Part shown: in pieces, positions 13,755-64,000 of the stretch
How positions within the stretch are numbered: the stretch's first letter is position 1
Layout of the letters: the number at the start of each line of letters is the position of its first letter
Assembly (NCBI RefSeq): GCF_916619195.1
Contig: NZ_CAKAKL010000008.1
Span: forward strand, 124,001 to 188,000
From: Inquilinus sp. Marseille-Q2685
Lineage (GTDB): Bacteria; Pseudomonadota; Alphaproteobacteria; DSM-16000; Inquilinaceae
Direction of reading: 5' to 3'
DNA: 64,000 nt
The notes under the pieces: generated by a model
What the model was told of the DNA's origin: nothing
Databases searched by the model: none
Seen by the model: only the letters and a program-made list of their open reading frames with translations
Made by a program: the position numbers and the translations under genes

Positions 13755-14691
13755 AGTCCGAGGCCGCCAGCTGCGTCAGGTCCCGGACCTTCACGGCAAG
13801 ATCGGCGACGCGGTCGCCGTTGGCATCGGCCGAGACCAGGAGATCCGCGCCCATGGCCTCATAGCGCAGCTCGCCGGCCGTGCCGCTGAAGGCCGCGGCG
13901 CCGATGAAGGCGAAGGCCTGGTCGTCCGGCGCGGCGGGATCGGCGTCGATGCGCGAGAGGTCGATCGTGTCGCGGAAGGTGAAGTCGAGGATGGTGTCCT
14001 CCTGTCCCGGCAGGCTTTCCACCAGCCGGTCGATCCGGATGATGTCGGCGCCCCTGCCGCTCAGCAGGCCGTCGGCGCCGCGCCCGCCGACCAGGATGTC
14101 GTCGCCGTCGCTGCCCTCCAGGCGATCGGTGCCGCCGCGGCCGGAGAGGAGGTCGTCGCCGCCGTAGCCTGCAAGGCGGCTCCCCCTGTCCGTGCCGACA
14201 AGGATGTCGTGTCCGGAACTGCCATAGGCATCCTCGAAATTGAGGACCGTCGCTTCGACGAACACGCCCGGTTCATCCATCAGACCGATCAGTGCGGTCC
14301 CGTTCTCCAGATGGACGAAGACGCCCCGACCCCCGAGGCTCAGAATGTCCTTGCCGTCGCCGCCGTCGAAAAAGATGTCCGGGCCCGCGCCGCGGTAGAT
14401 GGCCGCGTAGTCGTCTCCCGCCCCGCCATGGAATCTGGTGTCCCCGATCCTGGCCTCGTCCCACAGTCTCAGAGACTCCGAGCCCGGACCGCCATGGACC
14501 GTGTCTCCGCCATCACCGAGCCAGATGTTGACGTGTCCCGTATTCCCCTGATCCACCTCGATCAGATCCGAGCCGGTATAGGCTTCGACGTGGTTCCAAT
14601 CATCATTGGCGGGTACGACGAGATGGTCGTCGCCGTCAGTGCCGTAGATCTCGAGATGGTCGGCGGCGACGGCGCTCTGGACCTCGGTCAT
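13744..14691 (-). CDS. Short RTX calcium-binding protein (315 aa), tandem paralogue
   Basis: The N-terminus begins LEIYGTDGDDHLVVPANDD, then SDLIEVDQGN, GDGGDTVHGGPGSESL and FHGGAGDDYAAIY. Calcium-binding repeats run GYGGDDLLSGRGGTDRLEG to GGRGADGLLSGRGAD. The C-terminal module (ILDFTFRDTIDLSRIDAD, FIGAAAFSGTAGELRYEA, LAASDFIL) matches the other RTX proteins here. It is a clear paralogue of the next gene upstream in nearly the same layout, so the pair arose by tandem duplication. No signal peptide is present, so export is presumably by a type I system encoded elsewhere. The 3' end overlaps the LacI gene by 11 bp. Confidence 0.83.
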   Translation of the reverse strand: MTEVQSAVAADHLEIYGTDGDDHLVVPANDDWNHVEAYTGSDLIEVDQGNTGHVNIWLGDGGDTVHGGPGSESLRLWDEARIGDTRFHGGAGDDYAAIYRGAGPDIFFDGGDGKDILSLGGRGVFVHLENGTALIGLMDEPGVFVEATVLNFEDAYGSSGHDILVGTDRGSRLAGYGGDDLLSGRGGTDRLEGSDGDDILVGGRGADGLLSGRGADIIRIDRLVESLPGQEDTILDFTFRDTIDLSRIDADPAAPDDQAFAFIGAAAFSGTAGELRYEAMGADLLVSADANGDRVADLAVKVRDLTQLAASDFIL

Positions 14692-14752
14692 CTCTTTCCT
14701 CCGTGAATGATGCCTGGCTGTGCGCCCGGCAGGCGCGGACCGTTGGCGCGGG

Positions 14753-15679
14753 TCAAAGGATGAAATCGTCTCTCGCCATGGCGGCCACCTCCGTCACCGT
14801 GACGGCAAAGTCGGCGACCTTGTCGCCATCGGCATCCGCCGAGAGCCGCACGCCGTTCCACACGGCCTCGGTGCGCAGCTCGCCGGCCGTGCCGCTGAAG
14901 GCGGCGGCGCCGATGAAGACGAAGGCCTGGTTCCCTGGCGTGGTCAGGTCGGCATCGACGCGCCACAGATCGATCCGGTCCTTGATGCTGAACTTGACGA
15001 TGGTGTCTTCCTGGCCCGGCAGGCTGTCGGCGAGCTGGCTGAACCGGATGACGTCGACGCCCCGGCCGCTGTCGAGCAGGTCGGCGCCGGTCCCTCCGAC
15101 CAGCGTGTCGTTGCCCTCGCCACCGGTCAGCTCGTCGTTCCCGCCGCGGCCGGACAGGAGGTCGTGCCCGCCATAGCCGCGGAACAGCTCGTCGGCACCC
15201 GACCCGGCGATGATGTCGTACCCCTCGGTGCCGAAGATGCGCTCGAAATTGCGCACGGTCGCTTCGTAGAACAGGCCCGACCCGTCATTGGGCGACAGAT
15301 GCGCGATGCCGGTCTCCAGGTTGATATGGGCGGCGCGGCCGCGCGGCCAGAACTCGTCCATGCCGCCTTCGCCGCCGTCCAGGACGTTGCCGGCGCCCGA
15401 GCCTCCGCCGCCGCCGGCAAAGCCGACGGAATCGTCCCCTGCGCCGCCATGGAAGGTGACGTTCTCGATCCTGGAGAGGAAATCGATGCCCAGGCGGTCC
15501 GAGCCGGCTCCGCCGACGACCGTGTCGCCCCCATCCCAGAAGGTGATGACGTTGTCGCTGGCGTTCTCCGGATCGACCTCGACCAGATCCACGCCGCTTT
15601 GCCCCTGAATGATATTGTATTCGCCGTTATCGGGCACGATGATGTGGTCGTCACCCGTGGTTCCATAGAACCAGGCCAT
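14753..15679 (-). CDS. Short RTX calcium-binding protein (308 aa), tandem paralogue
   Basis: Starting MAWFYGTTGDDHIIVPDNGE, the protein follows its downstream neighbour segment by segment: VDLVEVDPENAS, FWDGGDTVVGGAGSDRL, FHGGAGDDSVGF, YEATVRNFERIFGTEGYD, GYGGHDLLSGRGGNDELTG, then VKFSIKDRIDLWRVDAD, FIGAAAFSGTAGELRTEA and ending ARDDFIL. ATG 15679 has GGAGG 8 bases upstream, preferred over an in-frame ATG at 15721. The DNA upstream (15700-15800) is AT-rich for this genome and probably holds the promoter of the pair. Its function is unknown. Confidence 0.83.
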   Translation of the reverse strand: MAWFYGTTGDDHIIVPDNGEYNIIQGQSGVDLVEVDPENASDNVITFWDGGDTVVGGAGSDRLGIDFLSRIENVTFHGGAGDDSVGFAGGGGGSGAGNVLDGGEGGMDEFWPRGRAAHINLETGIAHLSPNDGSGLFYEATVRNFERIFGTEGYDIIAGSGADELFRGYGGHDLLSGRGGNDELTGGEGNDTLVGGTGADLLDSGRGVDVIRFSQLADSLPGQEDTIVKFSIKDRIDLWRVDADLTTPGNQAFVFIGAAAFSGTAGELRTEAVWNGVRLSADADGDKVADFAVTVTEVAAMARDDFIL

Positions 15680-15875
15680 TGCCGCCCTCCAGTGATGAAG
15701 GATGATACGGCAACATCTCATAAGATTATGACATAGTCACTTTTCCGATTTTAAGGAACTTATAGAGCAATATTTGCCAATCAAGATAATAATACAGATC
15801 GGTTACGGCAAAGCGCAGCCCGGACGGCCGAACAGCGCGGCCAGGCCGCAGGCCGAGGTCAGCATGCGGTCGCCG

Positions 15876-16871
15876 TCATGGGCCGACGCCCTCGACCAGC
15901 AGCAGCCTCTGCCGGAATTCACCGGGATGGCGCCCGCGCAGATACTGCACATAGGCCTCGCCGCGGGCGAGGCGGTAGGGTCCCTGCGCCTCCGCCATGC
16001 AGGTCTTGTCCAGCGCCGGGTGGTTCGGATCGGTGTCGGCGGTGCCGAGCAGATAGGTCACGTCGCGGCCGAGATAGGCCTGCTCCAGCGCCGCCGGAAG
16101 CGCCGATCCGGCATAGGCCGGCAGGTCGGCCATGCCGTATTTCCAGCGGTCGAATTTCGGGCAGGACGCGGCGCCGGCAAAGGGGCCGAAGCCGCCCTTC
16201 CCGTCCGGCCGGTCGGCGCTGAAATAGGCATAGGTTGAAGGATTGGCGACGACGTAGCGCACGGCGATGCCGGCCGCGACCGGCCCCGCCTCGCCCTTGC
16301 CCAGGATGGCGTAGCGCTGCACCACCTGGCCGCCGCCGGAATGGCCGGCCACCACGATCGTCTGCAGGTCCGGGAACAGCGCGCGGTCGGCCAGCTTCGC
16401 CAGGATCGCGTCGAGCGCGGCGAAGGAGCTGATCGGGGCCGGGCCCTTGGCGTCGGCGCCGCCCTCCCAGCCGGTCGTGCCCCACCGCAGCGTCCCGGCG
16501 GGCAGGTGATGGGCCGCCGCTTCGATCTCGGAGAGGAACTGCGGCACCACCAGGATCGCGGCCGTCCCCGCTTCCCCCGCCGCCGCCAGCGCCTTCTCGC
16601 CCGAGGCGTTGTAGACATCGGCGTTGCGCAGCCGGCCATGGATGACGATCACCGCCCGGGTGACGCCCGGCTGCGGCTTCGACCAGTCGCGCGAGACGTA
16701 GAGCGCCAGCTCACCGGTGCCGGCCGGCGTGGTCACCGCCAGACGCCGGTCGGCCACCACCTTCACCGGCTTTTCGGGCGAGCTCTCATCGGCCGCGTGC
16801 AGCGGCGGGCCCGACAGGGCGACCAGGCCCGTCACCATGGCGAGGACCCCGAGGACATATCGCAGAACCAT
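15876..16871 (-). CDS. Secreted alpha/beta hydrolase
   Basis: The 331-residue product starts MVLRYVLGVLAMVTGLVALS, a Sec signal peptide ending LHAADE. It has alpha/beta-hydrolase features: AVIVIHGRLRN (oxyanion region), a nucleophile elbow GHSGGGQVVQR with serine in G-x-S-x-G, and a late histidine near RLARGEAYVQYLRGRHPGEF. YLLGTADTDPNHP probably holds the acid residue. I used ATG 16871 because AGGGAGA lies before it; the much longer open frame upstream is antisense to the amidase. The substrate is unknown; an esterase or lipase-like role in the periplasm is likely. Confidence 0.78.
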   Translation of the reverse strand: MVLRYVLGVLAMVTGLVALSGPPLHAADESSPEKPVKVVADRRLAVTTPAGTGELALYVSRDWSKPQPGVTRAVIVIHGRLRNADVYNASGEKALAAAGEAGTAAILVVPQFLSEIEAAAHHLPAGTLRWGTTGWEGGADAKGPAPISSFAALDAILAKLADRALFPDLQTIVVAGHSGGGQVVQRYAILGKGEAGPVAAGIAVRYVVANPSTYAYFSADRPDGKGGFGPFAGAASCPKFDRWKYGMADLPAYAGSALPAALEQAYLGRDVTYLLGTADTDPNHPALDKTCMAEAQGPYRLARGEAYVQYLRGRHPGEFRQRLLLVEGVGP

Positions 16872-52862: not shown

Positions 52863-55235
52863 CTACAGCACGAAGTCGCCGGCCGCGAGGGCGATGCCGC
52901 CGGTCAGGGTAATGTGGAAGTCGGTGACCTTGTCGCCGTTGACGTCGCCGCCGATGGTGGTGACACCGTCTCTCACGACATAGCGCAGCTGCCCGGCGAT
53001 GCCGGTATAGACGCCGGTGCCGATGAAGCTGAAGGCCTGGTCGCCGGCGACACCGGTGTTGGCGTCGATCAGGTGCAGGTCGATCCTGTCCGCCTGAGCG
53101 CGGCTGAAATCGGCGATCCGGTCGGCATTGGCCCCGACCACGCTGTCGCCGAGCGCGGTGAACCGGAACTGGTCCGCCCCGGCGCCGCCGGCGAGCGTGT
53201 CCCTGCCGGCCCCGCCGACGAGGACATCGCTGCCGTTCCAGCCCTGCAGCGTGTTGGCCCCGGCATTCCCGGTCAGGCTGTCGGCGCCCTGGCTGCCCGA
53301 GAGATTCTCGATGCCGGTCAGCGTGTCGCCCTGGGCGATGCCGCCGCTGCCCTGGCCGGTGGCGAGGCTGACCACGACCCCGACCGAGCTCTCATAGTAG
53401 CTGGCGATGTCGATGCCGGCGCCGCCGTCGAGCACGTCGCCCCCCGCCCCGCCGCGGAGCAGGTCGTCGCCGGCACCGCCATGGAGCGTGTCGTTTCCGG
53501 CCACGCCGTCGAGCGTATCGGCACCGCCATAGCCGGACAGCACGTTGGCGACCGCGGAGCCCGTCAGGATATCCCCGAACCCGTCCGTGCCCTGGATGTT
53601 CTCGATATCGCTGCCGATCGTGTCGCCCTGTGCGTCGCCGCCGGACGCTGTCAGGGCCGTCAGGTTGACCCGCACCGCCGCGGAGCCGTCGTAGTTGATC
53701 GTGTCGATGCCGGCACCGCCGGTCAGGACATCCGCGCCGGCGCCGCCGGTGAGGAAGTCGTCTCCATCGCCGCCGTTGAGCGCGTCGTTCCCGGCGAGGC
53801 CGGACAGCACGTCGGCCCCGGCCAGGCCGGACAGCGCATTGGCGGCGGCGGAACCGGTCAGGCTGTCGTTGAAGCCGGTGCCGCGGACGTTCTCGATATC
53901 GTTGCCGATGCTGTCGCCCTCGGCATCGCCACCGAAGGCCGTGAACGTGGTCAGGTCGATCGTGATCCCGGCCGCCCCGCCGTAGACGATCGTGTCGCTG
54001 CCCGCGCCGCCGATCAGCGCGTCCGCCCCGGCGCCGCCCTCGAGGACATCGCTGCCGGCCCCGCCGTCGAGCGTGTCGTTGCCGGCCAGCCCGCCGAGCC
54101 TGTCGTTGCCGCCATTGCCCGACAGCACATTGCCGAAGGCCGAACCGGTCAGGACGTCGTTGAACCCGTCGGTGCCCTGGATGTTCTCGATGTCGCTGCC
54201 GATGGTGTCGCCCTGGGCGTCGCCGCCGACGCCGGTGCCGCCGATGGTCACCGTCACCCCGGCCGGGCCGTTGTAGACGATGGTGTCGACGCCGGCGCCG
54301 CCGTTCAGCACATCCGCCCCGGCGCCCCCCTCGAGGGTGTCGTTGCCGCTGCTGCCGTTGAGACTGCTGATCCCGCCATGGAGCACGTCGTTCCCGGCGC
54401 CGCCGCGCAGCACGTCGTCTCCGGCACCGCCATTGAGCGAATCGTCGCCGCCCAGGCCGTCGAGCACGTCGTTGCCGCCCTGGCCCAGCAGGGCGTTGGC
54501 CGCGGCCGACCCGGTCAGCGTGTCGTCGAAGCCGTTCGAGCCCTCGATGTTCTCGATATCGGCACCGATCGTGTCGCCCTGGGCGTCGCCGCCGGATGCG
54601 GTCAGCGCCGTCAGGTTGACCGTCACGGCGGCGGTGCTGGAGAAGTAGGTGATCCGGTCGATGCCCGCTCCGCCGCTCAACGTATCGGCGCCGGCGCCGC
54701 CCTGGAGGATGTCGTCCCCGTCGCCGCCGCGCAGGATGTCGGTGCCGGCGCCGGCGTTGAGAGTGTCGTTGCCGGCCCCGCCGTCGAGCAGGTCGTTGCC
54801 CGAGCCCGAGGCGTCCCCGGCGACCAGGGTGTCGTCGCCGCCGAGCCCGTAGAGGGCGTTGTTGCCGGCCCCGCCGACCAGGCGGTTGGCCGCGGCCGAC
54901 CCGGTCAGCGTGTCGTCGAAGGCCGTGCCCTCGATGTTCTCGATGTCGGCGCCGACCGCATCGCCCTGGGCGTCGCCGCCGCTGCCGGCGCCGCCGATGG
55001 TGACGGTCCCGCCCGCGGCGCTGGCGCCGTAATCGGCGGTGTCGGTCCCGGCGCCGCCGTTCAGCGTGTCCGCCCCGAGACCGCCGCGAAGCGTGTCGTT
55101 GCCGTCGCCGCCATTGAGGGTATCCTGGCCGGCCAGCCCGGAGAGGATGTCGTTGCCGCCGAGGCCGTTGATCGTGTCGTTGCTCGCCGTGCCGTCGAGA
55201 ATATCGGCGCCCGCATCGCCGTTGATGACCGCCAT
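52863..55235 (-). CDS. Large RTX calcium-binding repeat protein (790 aa)
   Basis: The largest of the five RTX proteins starts [20 protein letters not shown] and consists of about six near-identical blocks: beta-roll nonapeptides, then a strand such as [20 protein letters not shown], then [20 protein letters not shown]. The C-terminal module ([63 protein letters not shown]) matches the other RTX proteins. It is less regular in the first block than in the last. No enzyme domain is seen; a surface or biofilm role is inferred. The upstream DNA (55236-55355) is AT-rich and probably holds the promoter. The convergent GNAT gene ends 18 bp away. Confidence 0.87.
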
Positions 55236-55355: not shown

Positions 55356-56168
55356 CTAGCCGCCGATCGCGCCGCAGAGCAGCGCCATGGCGACGGCCTC
55401 GGCACGGCTGCCCGCCCCCAGCTTGCGCATGGCCGAGGCGAGGTATTCGTTGACGGTGTAGACCGATAGGGACAGCCGGCGCGCCGCCTCCTTGCTGGAG
55501 GCGCCGCGGGCGACCCAGGTCAGGCAGTCGCATTCGCGCGGGGTCAGCGGCGGCCGCGGCCGGGGCGCGGCGGCGGGGGCTTCCAGCGCGGCCAGCCCGC
55601 GCTCGATCCGCAGCGCCCGCCCGAGATGCGGCCCGATCGCGCGAAGCATACGGACCTGCGCCTCGTCCCAGTCGGGCCGGCGCCGCGGCCGCCACACCGA
55701 CAGCATCGCCGAGAGGTCGCCCTGGGCGAAATCGACCCAGTACAGGCCGTGGTCCTTGCCCTGCGGCCGCATGAAGTCGTTGTAGAACTCGGTGCGCCGG
55801 TACTCGGCGTTCGGCATCAGCGCCGAATGGGCGAAGGCGGCGTTCGGCTTCAGTCGCGGCAGCAGGGGCAGGAGCGGCAGCAGCCTGGAATAATGCGCGT
55901 GGTACCGCTCGACATAGTCCGGATCGGTCTCCGTCGCCATGGTCGCGGGACCCGGCGCGGCCGGGCCGATCCGGCGCAGCACCACGGACTCGCCGCCCAA
56001 CGCCTCGCCCAGCCGGCGCAGCACCGCGAGCCAGTCCTCGTTGCCGGTACCGGCGTCGTAGATCTGGTCGATCAGCCCGAGAATCGGCGATTCGCCCGCC
56101 CGGGCGACGGAAGACGGCTCATCGACCGCCGGCGGATGCGCCGACCCGCCGATGGAACGGCCTTGCAT
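55356..56168 (-). CDS. LuxR-family transcriptional regulator
   Basis: The 270-residue protein has a C-terminal LuxR helix-turn-helix (LTPRECDCLTWVARGASSKE, then RRLSLSVYTVNEYLASAMRK). An N-terminal half of about 190 residues (PILGLIDQIYDAGTGNEDWL, AVLRRLGEALGGESVVLRRI, WRPRRRPDWDEAQVRMLRAI) is of a type found in orphan LuxR proteins. I see neither a receiver domain nor the usual acyl-homoserine-lactone binding pattern. ATG 56168 has GAGGGGA upstream. It lies just upstream, on the same strand, of the large RTX gene and might control it; this is inferred from position. Confidence 0.8.
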   Translation of the reverse strand: MQGRSIGGSAHPPAVDEPSSVARAGESPILGLIDQIYDAGTGNEDWLAVLRRLGEALGGESVVLRRIGPAAPGPATMATETDPDYVERYHAHYSRLLPLLPLLPRLKPNAAFAHSALMPNAEYRRTEFYNDFMRPQGKDHGLYWVDFAQGDLSAMLSVWRPRRRPDWDEAQVRMLRAIGPHLGRALRIERGLAALEAPAAAPRPRPPLTPRECDCLTWVARGASSKEAARRLSLSVYTVNEYLASAMRKLGAGSRAEAVAMALLCGAIGG

Positions 56169-56352
56169 GGATATCCCCTCTCCCCTCGCACGCCGGGCGG
56201 GGCCCGGCGCTGCACATGCCGTGCATAAGAGAATACTGGATCGGACCCGGTCCTGTCGCGGTGACGGCGCGCACACCCGCTACGGTGGCACTCGCAATGG
56301 GCCCGGCTGTCGCGATAAAGCCGTTACGGCGCGAGACGGAATTCCGGAGCGG

Positions 56353-62704: not shown

Positions 62705-63016
62705 ATGACGGCCCTTCCTGACCCCCCTCCGCAGATCGACACGCCAGATCAGAACGACACGGCGGATCGTCGAGCGTTCCTGGCCAAGTGCGGCCGATTT
62801 GCGGTCGTGACCCCTCCCGCGGTCACCATGCTCCTGTCGACCAGCCTGAGCTCACAGGCGATCGCACAGTCGGGCGGCCGGGGCGGTCCGCCGGGCCATA
62901 ATCCGGGCCCTGGCGGAACACCCCCGGGCCATGGCGGCACACCCCCGGGGCATGGCGGCGAGAATCCAGGCCGGCACGGCGGCCTGTTAGGCTGGCTCCT
63001 GGGCCTGCTGTCCTAG
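62705..63016 (+). CDS. Small Tat-leader Gly/Pro/His-rich peptide, candidate RiPP precursor
   Basis: The 103-residue product has three parts. Residues 1-20 are acidic and Pro-rich. Then comes DRRAFLAKCGRFAVVTPPAV and TMLLSTSLSSQAIAQSGG, a twin-arginine-like motif plus hydrophobic stretch and an AIA cleavage-like site. The rest is a repeat tail, GGTPPGHGG twice in tandem, ending GLLGWLLGLLS with a C-terminal serine. AGAAGG precedes ATG 62705 by about 7 bases. The gene ends 11 bp before a PqqD-HprK-like gene. This arrangement suggests a modified peptide whose leader is bound by the PqqD domain; a simple Tat-exported Gly-rich protein is the alternative. No homologue can be named from sequence alone. 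Confidence 0.7.
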   Translation: MTALPDPPPQIDTPDQNDTADRRAFLAKCGRFAVVTPPAVTMLLSTSLSSQAIAQSGGRGGPPGHNPGPGGTPPGHGGTPPGHGGENPGRHGGLLGWLLGLLS

Positions 63017-63027
63017 GCGTCGCGAGG

Positions 63028-64000
63028 ATGATGCCGTCAGCCGACGAGACCGGCGGAACCGAGGCTGGCCCGGGCGAGGTCGACGCCGCAGGGCCTGCTT
63101 TCGCGGTGATGAACGGCCGAAAGCTGGCGTTCAGCGAGCCGCGGCAGGAGATCTACGAACTGAACGATACGGCGGCCTACATCTGGTACCGCCTGGCCGA
63201 TGGCGACGCGCCGGCGGCCATCATCGACGGCCTGGCCGGACTCGGGATTTCGCCGGAGACCGCGGACGCCTATGTCCGCGACGCGCTGGCCGTCTGGGCC
63301 AGGCTCGCCGGCGCCGGCAGGGCCGGCTTGGGCACGGCAGCCAGAGGCGGTGCGCAGCCTCAGGTCATCCACGTCGCCGGGCTGGTCGTCCGGATTCGAT
63401 ACGACCGCCCGTCCCTGGCGCGGATCGTCGCGCCCGCCTTCGCCCATCTCGCAGCGAAATCCCCCGCCGCGCACGAGGTCGCCCGGGCGGATGTGTCGCT
63501 CGAGATCCTTGCCGAGGGGACCCGGTTCCGATTGCAGGCGGATGGTGTGGGCCTGGACGCATGGGGCCTGGACGAGCTCCTTCCGGCCCTGAAGGCACAG
63601 CTCACCGCGGCTGTTCTGGCCCACGGCCGGTATGCGCTGGCGATCCATGCGGCGGCCTTGGCGCACCGCGATCGCATGCTGCTGCTCGGCGGGGAGGCCG
63701 GGGCGGGCAAGACGACCCTCGCGCTGGCCTTGGCGCATGCCGGCTTCGGCTATGCCGGCGACGACATCGCCCTGCTGACGCCGACCGGCCGGGTGGCCGG
63801 GGTGCCGTTCGCCGCGGCGGTCAAGTCCGACGCCTGGGGGTTGGTCTCGTGGTTCCGGCCGGAATTGGAGACGGTCCGAACCTGCCTGAGATCGGATGGG
63901 CAGCATGTCCGCTATCTGCCGCCGTCCGCCCCTCCGGTGATCGAGCCCCTGCCGCTCGGCTGGGTGGTGCTGCTGCGCCGGCAGCCACGCCGCGCCGCGG
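63028..64000 (+). CDS. PqqD-like/HprK-like kinase fusion (partial, C-terminus outside window)
   Basis: About 324 residues are visible. The N-terminal 95 residues (FAVMNGRKLAFSEPRQEIYE, LNDTAAYIWYRLADGDAP, IIDGLAGLGISPETADAYVR) match the PqqD-type RiPP recognition fold. After a linker, a kinase-like part has the P-loop GGEAGAGKTT (221-230) in a helix-strand setting, LALALAHAGFGYAGDDIALL with the paired aspartates of HprK-type kinases, and GVPFAAAVKSDAWGLVSWF. ATG 63028 or 63031 may be used; GCGAGG sits just before. HprK-like enzymes phosphorylate serine, and some lasso-peptide clusters use one to modify the precursor. The window ends before the domain is complete. Confidence 0.82.
   Translation, partial: MMPSADETGGTEAGPGEVDAAGPAFAVMNGRKLAFSEPRQEIYELNDTAAYIWYRLADGDAPAAIIDGLAGLGISPETADAYVRDALAVWARLAGAGRAGLGTAARGGAQPQVIHVAGLVVRIRYDRPSLARIVAPAFAHLAAKSPAAHEVARADVSLEILAEGTRFRLQADGVGLDAWGLDELLPALKAQLTAAVLAHGRYALAIHAAALAHRDRMLLLGGEAGAGKTTLALALAHAGFGYAGDDIALLTPTGRVAGVPFAAAVKSDAWGLVSWFRPELETVRTCLRSDGQHVRYLPPSAPPVIEPLPLGWVVLLRRQPRRAA

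Follow-up and report, generated by a model that had tools for sequence, protein, structure and literature searches.

Near the right end of a 64,000-nucleotide stretch of the Inquilinus sp. Marseille-Q2685 genome (contig NZ_CAKAKL010000008.1, positions 124,001 to 188,000; hereafter the window), a gene for a 103-amino-acid (aa) peptide is followed by a gene for a PqqD-like domain fused to an HprK-like kinase. A peptide with a near-invariant twin-arginine (RR) leader, the fused PqqD-HprK kinase and, nearly always, a protein of the NTP_transf_5 family form one functional unit. It is probable that this unit is a phosphopeptide-making module of the ribosomally synthesized and post-translationally modified peptide (RiPP) kind, an alphaproteobacterial counterpart of the LPP peptides of Bacillota.

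The open reading frame (ORF) at 62705-63016 and the 11-bp gap before the ATG of the kinase gene at 63028 had been proposed in an earlier sequence-only reading of this DNA and are both confirmed; the RR motif, the tandem GGTPPGHGG and the C-terminal Ser are present as it described. Neither Pfam nor NCBIfam has a model that matches the peptide at E<=1. When species genomes were scanned, 98 stretches with the pattern searched for were obtained, and 31 loci encoding a relative of the peptide, spread over Inquilinus, Sinorhizobium/Ensifer, Bradyrhizobium, Tardiphaga, Microvirga and metagenome-assembled genomes (MAGs). Of 289 genomes sampled evenly across the class Alphaproteobacteria, 7 encode it. 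The source genome holds two such peptides (class 1 in the following), the window copy and another on contig C12. The relatives share the leader consensus RRxFLxxCG[RK]FAV[VI]TPPAVTxLLSTS..xAIAxSG and have very different tails.

Alignment of 74 homologues, many of them closely related, so that all counts refer to non-independent events, revealed a leader that is near-invariant from RR through the SG behind an AxA. RRxF occurs in 74/74 (the matches having been located via RRxF itself), the A-x-A columns are conserved in 72 and 70 of the 74, and the residue two positions after AxA is Ser in 71/74. The second Pro of VTPP lies 16 residues from RR in all 72 class-1 peptides measured, and this Pro is separated from the Ser by 18 residues in 70 of them. 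The leader is under purifying selection, with a ratio of non-synonymous to synonymous polymorphism (pN/pS) of 0.07 over pooled pairs of ten Sinorhizobium/Ensifer copies and of 0.20 over pairs of five copies of the Inquilinus group. Since the leader is so constrained and the peptide has the same enzymes as neighbours in several genera, it is more than a chance ORF. The leader has the sequence features of Tat (twin-arginine translocation) substrates, namely a twin-arginine motif, a mildly hydrophobic stretch (mean hydropathy 1.35 over FAVVTPPAVTMLLSTS in the window leader) and AxA.

The 74 sequences were retained from 84 distinct matches. Three of the ten dropped run off the end of their locus (L066, L067 and L090, the last being part of the copy in G529 that is broken by frame changes), two are further parts of that copy (L082), one is a degraded copy (L009), one a MAG fragment (L050), and three are weak (the third copy of L059, L060 and L064). 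L009 and L050 are without the A-x-A-x-Ser pattern, and their removal favours the Ser count. Two L059 rows from another lineage, with Cys-rich tails and no Ser at this place, were kept among the 74 and do not enter the spacing measurements.

The tails comprise GNNGWGNG... types, PG repeats, His runs, KP repeats, Thr-rich repeats and amphipathic ends with Trp, for example LLEWLERFLSKFF. Class-1 peptides with long, mucin-like Thr-rich tails occur in L115, L116 and L117 (genomes G627, G755 and G675). Unlinked copies were also seen: an unannotated one on pSymB of Sinorhizobium meliloti 1021 (L175:8001-8144), and one in genome G003 (L018, 8121-8270, + strand) about 6 kb from apparent tatC, tatB and tatA genes (14519-16188, - strand, judged by eye). 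The positions of the peptide and kinase features are collected in the table.

Table. Features of the peptide gene and the fused kinase gene (window numbering).
Feature	Position	Strand	Basis
Precursor-like peptide gene, 103 aa	62705..63016	+	ORF list, homologues
Conserved leader RR...AIA, Tat-signal-like	62768..62866	+	alignment of 74 homologues
VTPPAV, proposed PqqD-bound motif (putative binding)	62807..62824	+	second Pro at RR+16 in 72/72 measured
Ser56 codon (AIA-Q-S), putative phosphate acceptor	62870..62872	+	column Ser in 71/74 homologues
Variable Gly/Pro/His-rich tail, ending GLLGWLLGLLS	62873..63013	+	homologue comparison
PqqD-HprK fusion, in-window part	63028..64000	+	profile searches; full 387 aa ends at 64191
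PqqD (RRE-like) domain, residues 38-91	63139..63300	+	PF05402, 27.9 bits, cut-off 23.4
Kinase His207	63646..63648	+	identical in 15/15
P-loop GGEAGAGKTT with Lys228	63688..63717	+	Gly225, Gly227 and Lys228 identical in 15/15
Kinase Asp245-Asp246	63760..63765	+	identical in 15/15

The association of peptide and kinase, put forward in the sequence-only reading, holds genome-wide and, in several genera, also as a shared neighbourhood. Among 466 genomes sampled from two families, the peptide occurs in 25 and a fusion kinase at E<=1e-50, a threshold chosen after inspecting the matches, likewise in 25, with 24 genomes having both (pooled Fisher p = 6e-38, a value that overstates the case because the genomes are related). 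In the family of the S. meliloti genome G302 (218 genomes), the peptide was found in 5 genomes and the kinase in the same 5; in that of the Bradyrhizobium genome G303 (248 genomes), each was found in 20 and both in 19. The peptide genome without a kinase is G773, whose assembly may be in many pieces, because its three matches sit on separate contigs (C562, C91 and C123). The kinase genome without a class-1 peptide is G643, in which a peptide with a leader of a second class, described below, lies beside the kinase. Up to six peptide matches accompany a single kinase match in one genome (G302, G651), most of them away from the kinase. In G529 (L090, L082, L097), kinase and peptide are both frame-broken, as if the pair decays together.

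At the level of loci, 19 of the 31 contain kinase and NTP_transf_5 protein in the fetched DNA and 12 contain neither, so that peptides without a kinase partner, which the sequence-only reading had named as a point that would speak against it, do exist locally. In the 12 genomes searched whole they do not: all 12 hold the kinase, six of them behind kinase-less loci. Of the remaining kinase-less loci, five (L024, L025, L027, L032, L045) come, judging by their record names, from genomes that are represented in the list by a kinase locus, and the last is L050. Of 34 kinase loci, 32 have an NTP_transf_5 relative in the DNA fetched with them, which covers about 1.5 kb on each side.

Neighbours were compared across lineages in 21 loci picked for proximity of kinase and NTP_transf_5 protein (ORFs of at least 80 aa, mostly within about 6 kb of the peptide). 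The shared groups are the peptide, the kinase and the NTP_transf_5 protein, followed by epimerase-like sugar-nucleotide proteins (3 loci), ABC ATPases (2 unrelated loci) and overlapping antisense ORFs (3 loci). Across these 21 loci there is no recurrent leader peptidase resembling signal peptidase I (SpI), MsbA-like exporter, macrolactam cyclase or B2 protease. The Bradyrhizobium loci, like the window, have polysaccharide or sugar-nucleotide genes as neighbours; such a link was rejected as a general rule, since the Sinorhizobium modules stand among unrelated genes. Other proteins were seen beside some kinases: one of about 280-310 aa in L142, L144 and L145 (the L144 and L145 versions have no Pfam match at E<=0.01), and a 2OG-Fe(II) oxygenase (PF13640, 63.9 bits) beside the G643 kinase (L143:609-1448, - strand), perhaps a further tailoring enzyme.

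The kinase ORF runs past the end of the window and was completed from the flanking contig DNA (63028-64191, window numbering). The sequence-only reading had left it possible that the completed kinase would lack catalytic residues; the His, Lys and Asp-Asp are all present. In the fusion, PF05402 scores above its cut-off and the fold is that of a RiPP recognition element (RRE), as expected of a PqqD-like RRE. TIGR04352 (HprK_rel_A) aligns to residues 117-383 with 71.9 bits, below the model cut-off of 200, and membership in that family was rejected; Pfam Hpr_kinase_C gives only 12.3 bits (cut-off 33.3). The kinase half is thus only distantly related to HprK, and its recognition depends mainly on profile and fold. 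With a structure model of the relative from locus L023, 58% identical to the window kinase, Foldseek finds HprK chains among its matches (3tqf, E 8.3e-5); with VIA-align, chains of phosphoenolpyruvate carboxykinase lead for the kinase half, and no HprK chain is among the best 50 matches listed. The fusion itself had been regarded as unusual, a view that does not stand, as all 20 aligned kinases extend over the N-terminal part and the kinase part, a statement about alignment extent, PF05402 itself having been run on a few proteins only. The source genome holds one kinase of the fusion type (E 7.8e-145) and one other weak HprK-like match. The only other PqqD match in the search of this genome lies in an apparent pyrroloquinoline quinone cluster (locus L005, judged by eye).

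The protein encoded 3' of the kinase matches NTP_transf_5 (PF14907) with 104.1 bits (cut-off 31.2). Its frame overlaps the end of the kinase gene, with the first in-frame start at 64125 and the end at 65234; the ATG at 64182 looks the likelier start. Asp118 and Asp120 (DxD) are invariant in 18 relatives, an alignment that does not contain the window copy. The best Foldseek match of the structure model is 5uvd (E 2.7e-3), and as none reaches E<=0.001, only a nucleotidyltransferase-like fold is suggested; a sequence search of the PDB with the family profile gave nothing useful. Downstream lie, successively, genes for a Crp-like regulator, GalE, a LuxR-type regulator, a Wzc-like chain-length protein and a Wza-like export protein. 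The sequence-only reading had placed the rest of a cluster to the right of the window, and this is borne out by the NTP_transf_5 protein, an enzyme of RiPP type; a lasso-like remainder is not supported, the eight domain-searched proteins including no lasso cyclase, B2 or leader protease or peptide exporter (the left flank and the DNA beyond the Wza-like gene were covered by ORF lists only). With neither cyclase nor B2 protease among these eight and polysaccharide genes in their place, a lasso peptide cluster was rejected. Farther right, ORFs resemble further sugar-nucleotide or polysaccharide genes (by eye). Within the window, a long Gly/Asp-rich repeat protein with the look of an RTX-type calcium-binding protein (52863-55235, - strand) has a LuxR-type regulator gene next to it (55356-56276, - strand; both by eye).

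A second class of leaders (class 2) was identified beside weakly matching HprK-like kinases (L147-L152), which adjoin one or more very small peptides, for example RRRAALAKLGRTAVYAVPATVSLMAMTRSARAC or ...RAAADS. In L147-L152 and L143 these form runs of RR-leader YxxP peptides with hardly any tail (e.g. L150:5-202, 266-457 and 566-721). Of the 14 class-2 peptides found, most end at Ser or Cys, and spacing was measured in eight, on strings cut by hand (L143 at the SG before its tail, with the Ser chosen manually). In 8/8 the Y-x-x-P lies at RR+16, the same register as in class 1, and because of this the VTPPAV of the window leader may be read as the RRE motif. The Pro-to-Ser distance is 15 in seven, the eighth having Cys there. 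Class 2 occurs in 9 of the 248 genomes of the Bradyrhizobium family at E<=1e-7, and 8 of these 9 have an HprK match at E<=1e-20, a co-occurrence that is partly circular, the query peptides having been taken from kinase loci. PF05402 scores on the L143 kinase and gives no score on those of L147, L148 and L150. Two more short RR-leader peptides adjoin HprK-like kinases (L094 near 1223, + strand; L153:2594-2767, - strand), one with YAAPVL and a Thr/Arg tail and one with RRDAMKGMGKLLAAAP; they perhaps represent further leader types.

Gene content, conservation and fold apart, the scheme proposed here is inferred. The PqqD domain would bind the leader in the cytoplasm through [V/I]TPPA[V/M/I/L], which stands where class 2 has YxxP. 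The kinase would then phosphorylate the conserved Ser two residues behind AxA (Ser56 in the window peptide), and the NTP_transf_5 enzyme would add a nucleotide or sugar to the serine phosphate. After its release the leader would serve as a Tat signal, to be cut after AIA by signal peptidase, and the tail, headed by the modified Ser, would find its final place in the envelope or outside. A second task of the PqqD domain would be that of a proofreading chaperone, hiding the signal and delaying Tat export until the ATP-dependent modification is done; proofreading chaperones of Tat enzymes provide a parallel. General Tat machinery and signal peptidase would replace a dedicated exporter and peptidase, the simplest reading given that the RRE is fused, that the leader is Tat-like with AxA before x-Ser, and that no dedicated peptidase or exporter recurs. 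A single kinase could act on several peptides whose genes lie at other places in the genome. In view of the low-complexity tails and of the polysaccharide setting of some, not all, loci, the product may be a peptide of the envelope or the matrix.

The closest known system is that of the LPP peptides, which comprises an RRE, an HprK-like kinase, an NTP (nucleoside triphosphate) transferase, an SpI-like peptidase and an MsbA-like exporter and is stated to be restricted to Bacillota (PMC13381572, 2026; this and the other published systems are compared on the basis of parts of the cited articles). The LPP kinase places phosphates on Ser3 of a core starting AQSNWK, and without phosphorylation the precursor is a poor substrate for cleavage (PMC13381572). 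Shared with the module are (i) the HprK-like kinase, with its catalytic residues; (ii) the NTP transferase, which in LPP is LppN; (iii) the PqqD-like RRE; (iv) precursors with a conserved N-terminus and a highly variable C-terminus, as class 1 has; (v) in part, a polysaccharide setting; (vi) the absence of a cyclase; and (vii) an acceptor Ser close behind the leader, A-Q-S in LPP and A-Q/K/R-S here. The two systems differ in that the RRE is discrete in LPP and fused to the kinase here, and in that the window leader is Tat-like and carries VTPPAVTMLLSTS, with VTPP, in place of the LPP motif YxxPxVLxHQxIxFETxxS. YxxP is the kind of motif bound by lasso and LPP RREs (PMC13381572), and it is all that class 2 shares with the LPP motif, apart from the Pro-to-Ser count of 15. 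The module further differs by the lack of a recurrent SpI-like peptidase or MsbA-like exporter (in the 21 loci and the eight window-locus proteins), by its occurrence in Alphaproteobacteria and by peptides that are often unlinked and present in several copies.

The lasso peptides paeninodin and pseudomycoidin are likewise associated with an HprK-like kinase with a His-Lys-Asp-Asp motif and a PqqD-like leader binder, and pseudomycoidin also with an NTP transferase, whose gene is required for hexoses on the phosphoserine (PMC9266682). In contrast to these systems, the proteins searched here include no cyclase or B2 protease, the C-terminal Ser is not conserved and the tails are unlike lasso cores. 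The RRE systems with DUF2063 and DUF2282 also have RRE-associated precursors with an export signal, which there is a Sec signal, with no specific RRE motif found, whereas the Tat-like leader described here contains a conserved motif (PMC12710340). The words HPr and kinase do not occur in the main texts of PMC7470986 and PMC12710340, as far as these were available, and among the matches listed no title or abstract of the open-licence literature deals with this family of peptides or with a RiPP that combines an RR leader and an HprK-like kinase.

Several points weigh against a phosphopeptide-making module of the LPP kind, in addition to the choice of the kinase threshold and the relatedness of the genomes. 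LppN, the NTP transferase of LPP, showed no activity in the test host, where its deletion changed nothing (PMC13381572). Five of the 218 genomes have weaker HprK-like matches (1e-24 to 1e-20) with no class-1 or class-2 peptide found, as do 4 of the 248, counted beyond the genomes with either leader class, and kinase loci L142 and L144 have no NTP_transf_5 relative within about 1.5 kb on each side. The case for Tat export consists of the RR motif, the AxA and the mildly hydrophobic stretch, and class 2 is without the RRxFL form. Class 1 carries V/I instead of Y/W at the position that is aromatic in the RRE motif, and the Pro-to-Ser distance is 18 in the window peptide as against 15 in LPP and class 2.

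The same enzymes could modify the same substrate elsewhere in the leader, at the LLSTS residues or the Cys, with the peptide remaining in the cytoplasm or inner membrane and the RR stretch forming an RRE-binding helix instead of a working Tat signal. The leader is indeed conserved residue by residue, beyond the needs of a signal peptide, and the S, T and S of LLSTS are conserved in 63, 64 and 64 of the 74; yet divergent lineages and class 2 lose the LLSTS serines and the Cys and keep the Ser behind AxA, which makes this explanation unlikely. To a similar degree it seems improbable that the peptide is just an ordinary small protein exported by Tat, with the two enzymes acting on another molecule, for instance in polysaccharide synthesis, and the association reflecting a shared niche or regulation. 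Polysaccharide and sugar-nucleotide genes adjoin the module in the window and in Bradyrhizobium, as this explanation would have it, but not in Sinorhizobium, and it does not account for a kinase with a domain of the leader-binding type or for near-complete co-occurrence despite the frequent unlinked location. Phosphorylation of the final serine, as in paeninodin, had been the proposal of the sequence-only reading. The window peptide and several class-2 peptides do end in Ser; only 4 of the 74 class-1 homologues do so, however, Arg (29) and Phe (14) being the commonest last residues, and the final Ser of class 2 is at the same time the Ser next to the AxA-like end. This acceptor is not supported, was rejected on the homologue count and is to be considered very improbable.

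Beyond the phosphopeptide-making module as such, a wide alphaproteobacterial RiPP class may be tentatively envisaged, with somewhat less than even confidence, in which the Tat signal itself is the leader. The RRE-HprK fusion would read a motif inside it, phosphorylate the first conserved Ser behind the cleavage site and hand the finished peptide over to Tat, one sequence thereby coupling its modification with its export. One enzyme pair would serve dispersed peptides with interchangeable Gly/Asn-, His-, Lys/Pro- or Thr-rich tails, and the class with VTPP and a tail and the class with YxxP, mostly without one, would be variants of a single scheme.

If the proposed reading is true, the peptide-kinase module would add a new form to a class of phosphate-bearing peptides that was described recently, and kinase-made phosphopeptides would extend from Bacillota to rhizobia and their relatives. 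For the RiPP field, this would mean a leader with a second role in Tat export, and the sharing of one sequence by a peptide-binding domain and the Tat machinery would become testable. Likely substrates would be named for HprK-like kinases and NTP transferases, which in the annotated records examined bear only labels such as serine kinase, hypothetical protein, ATP-binding protein or nucleotidyltransferase. Short hypothetical proteins that form a family with members in Sinorhizobium meliloti, a genetically easy organism, would also gain a proposed role.
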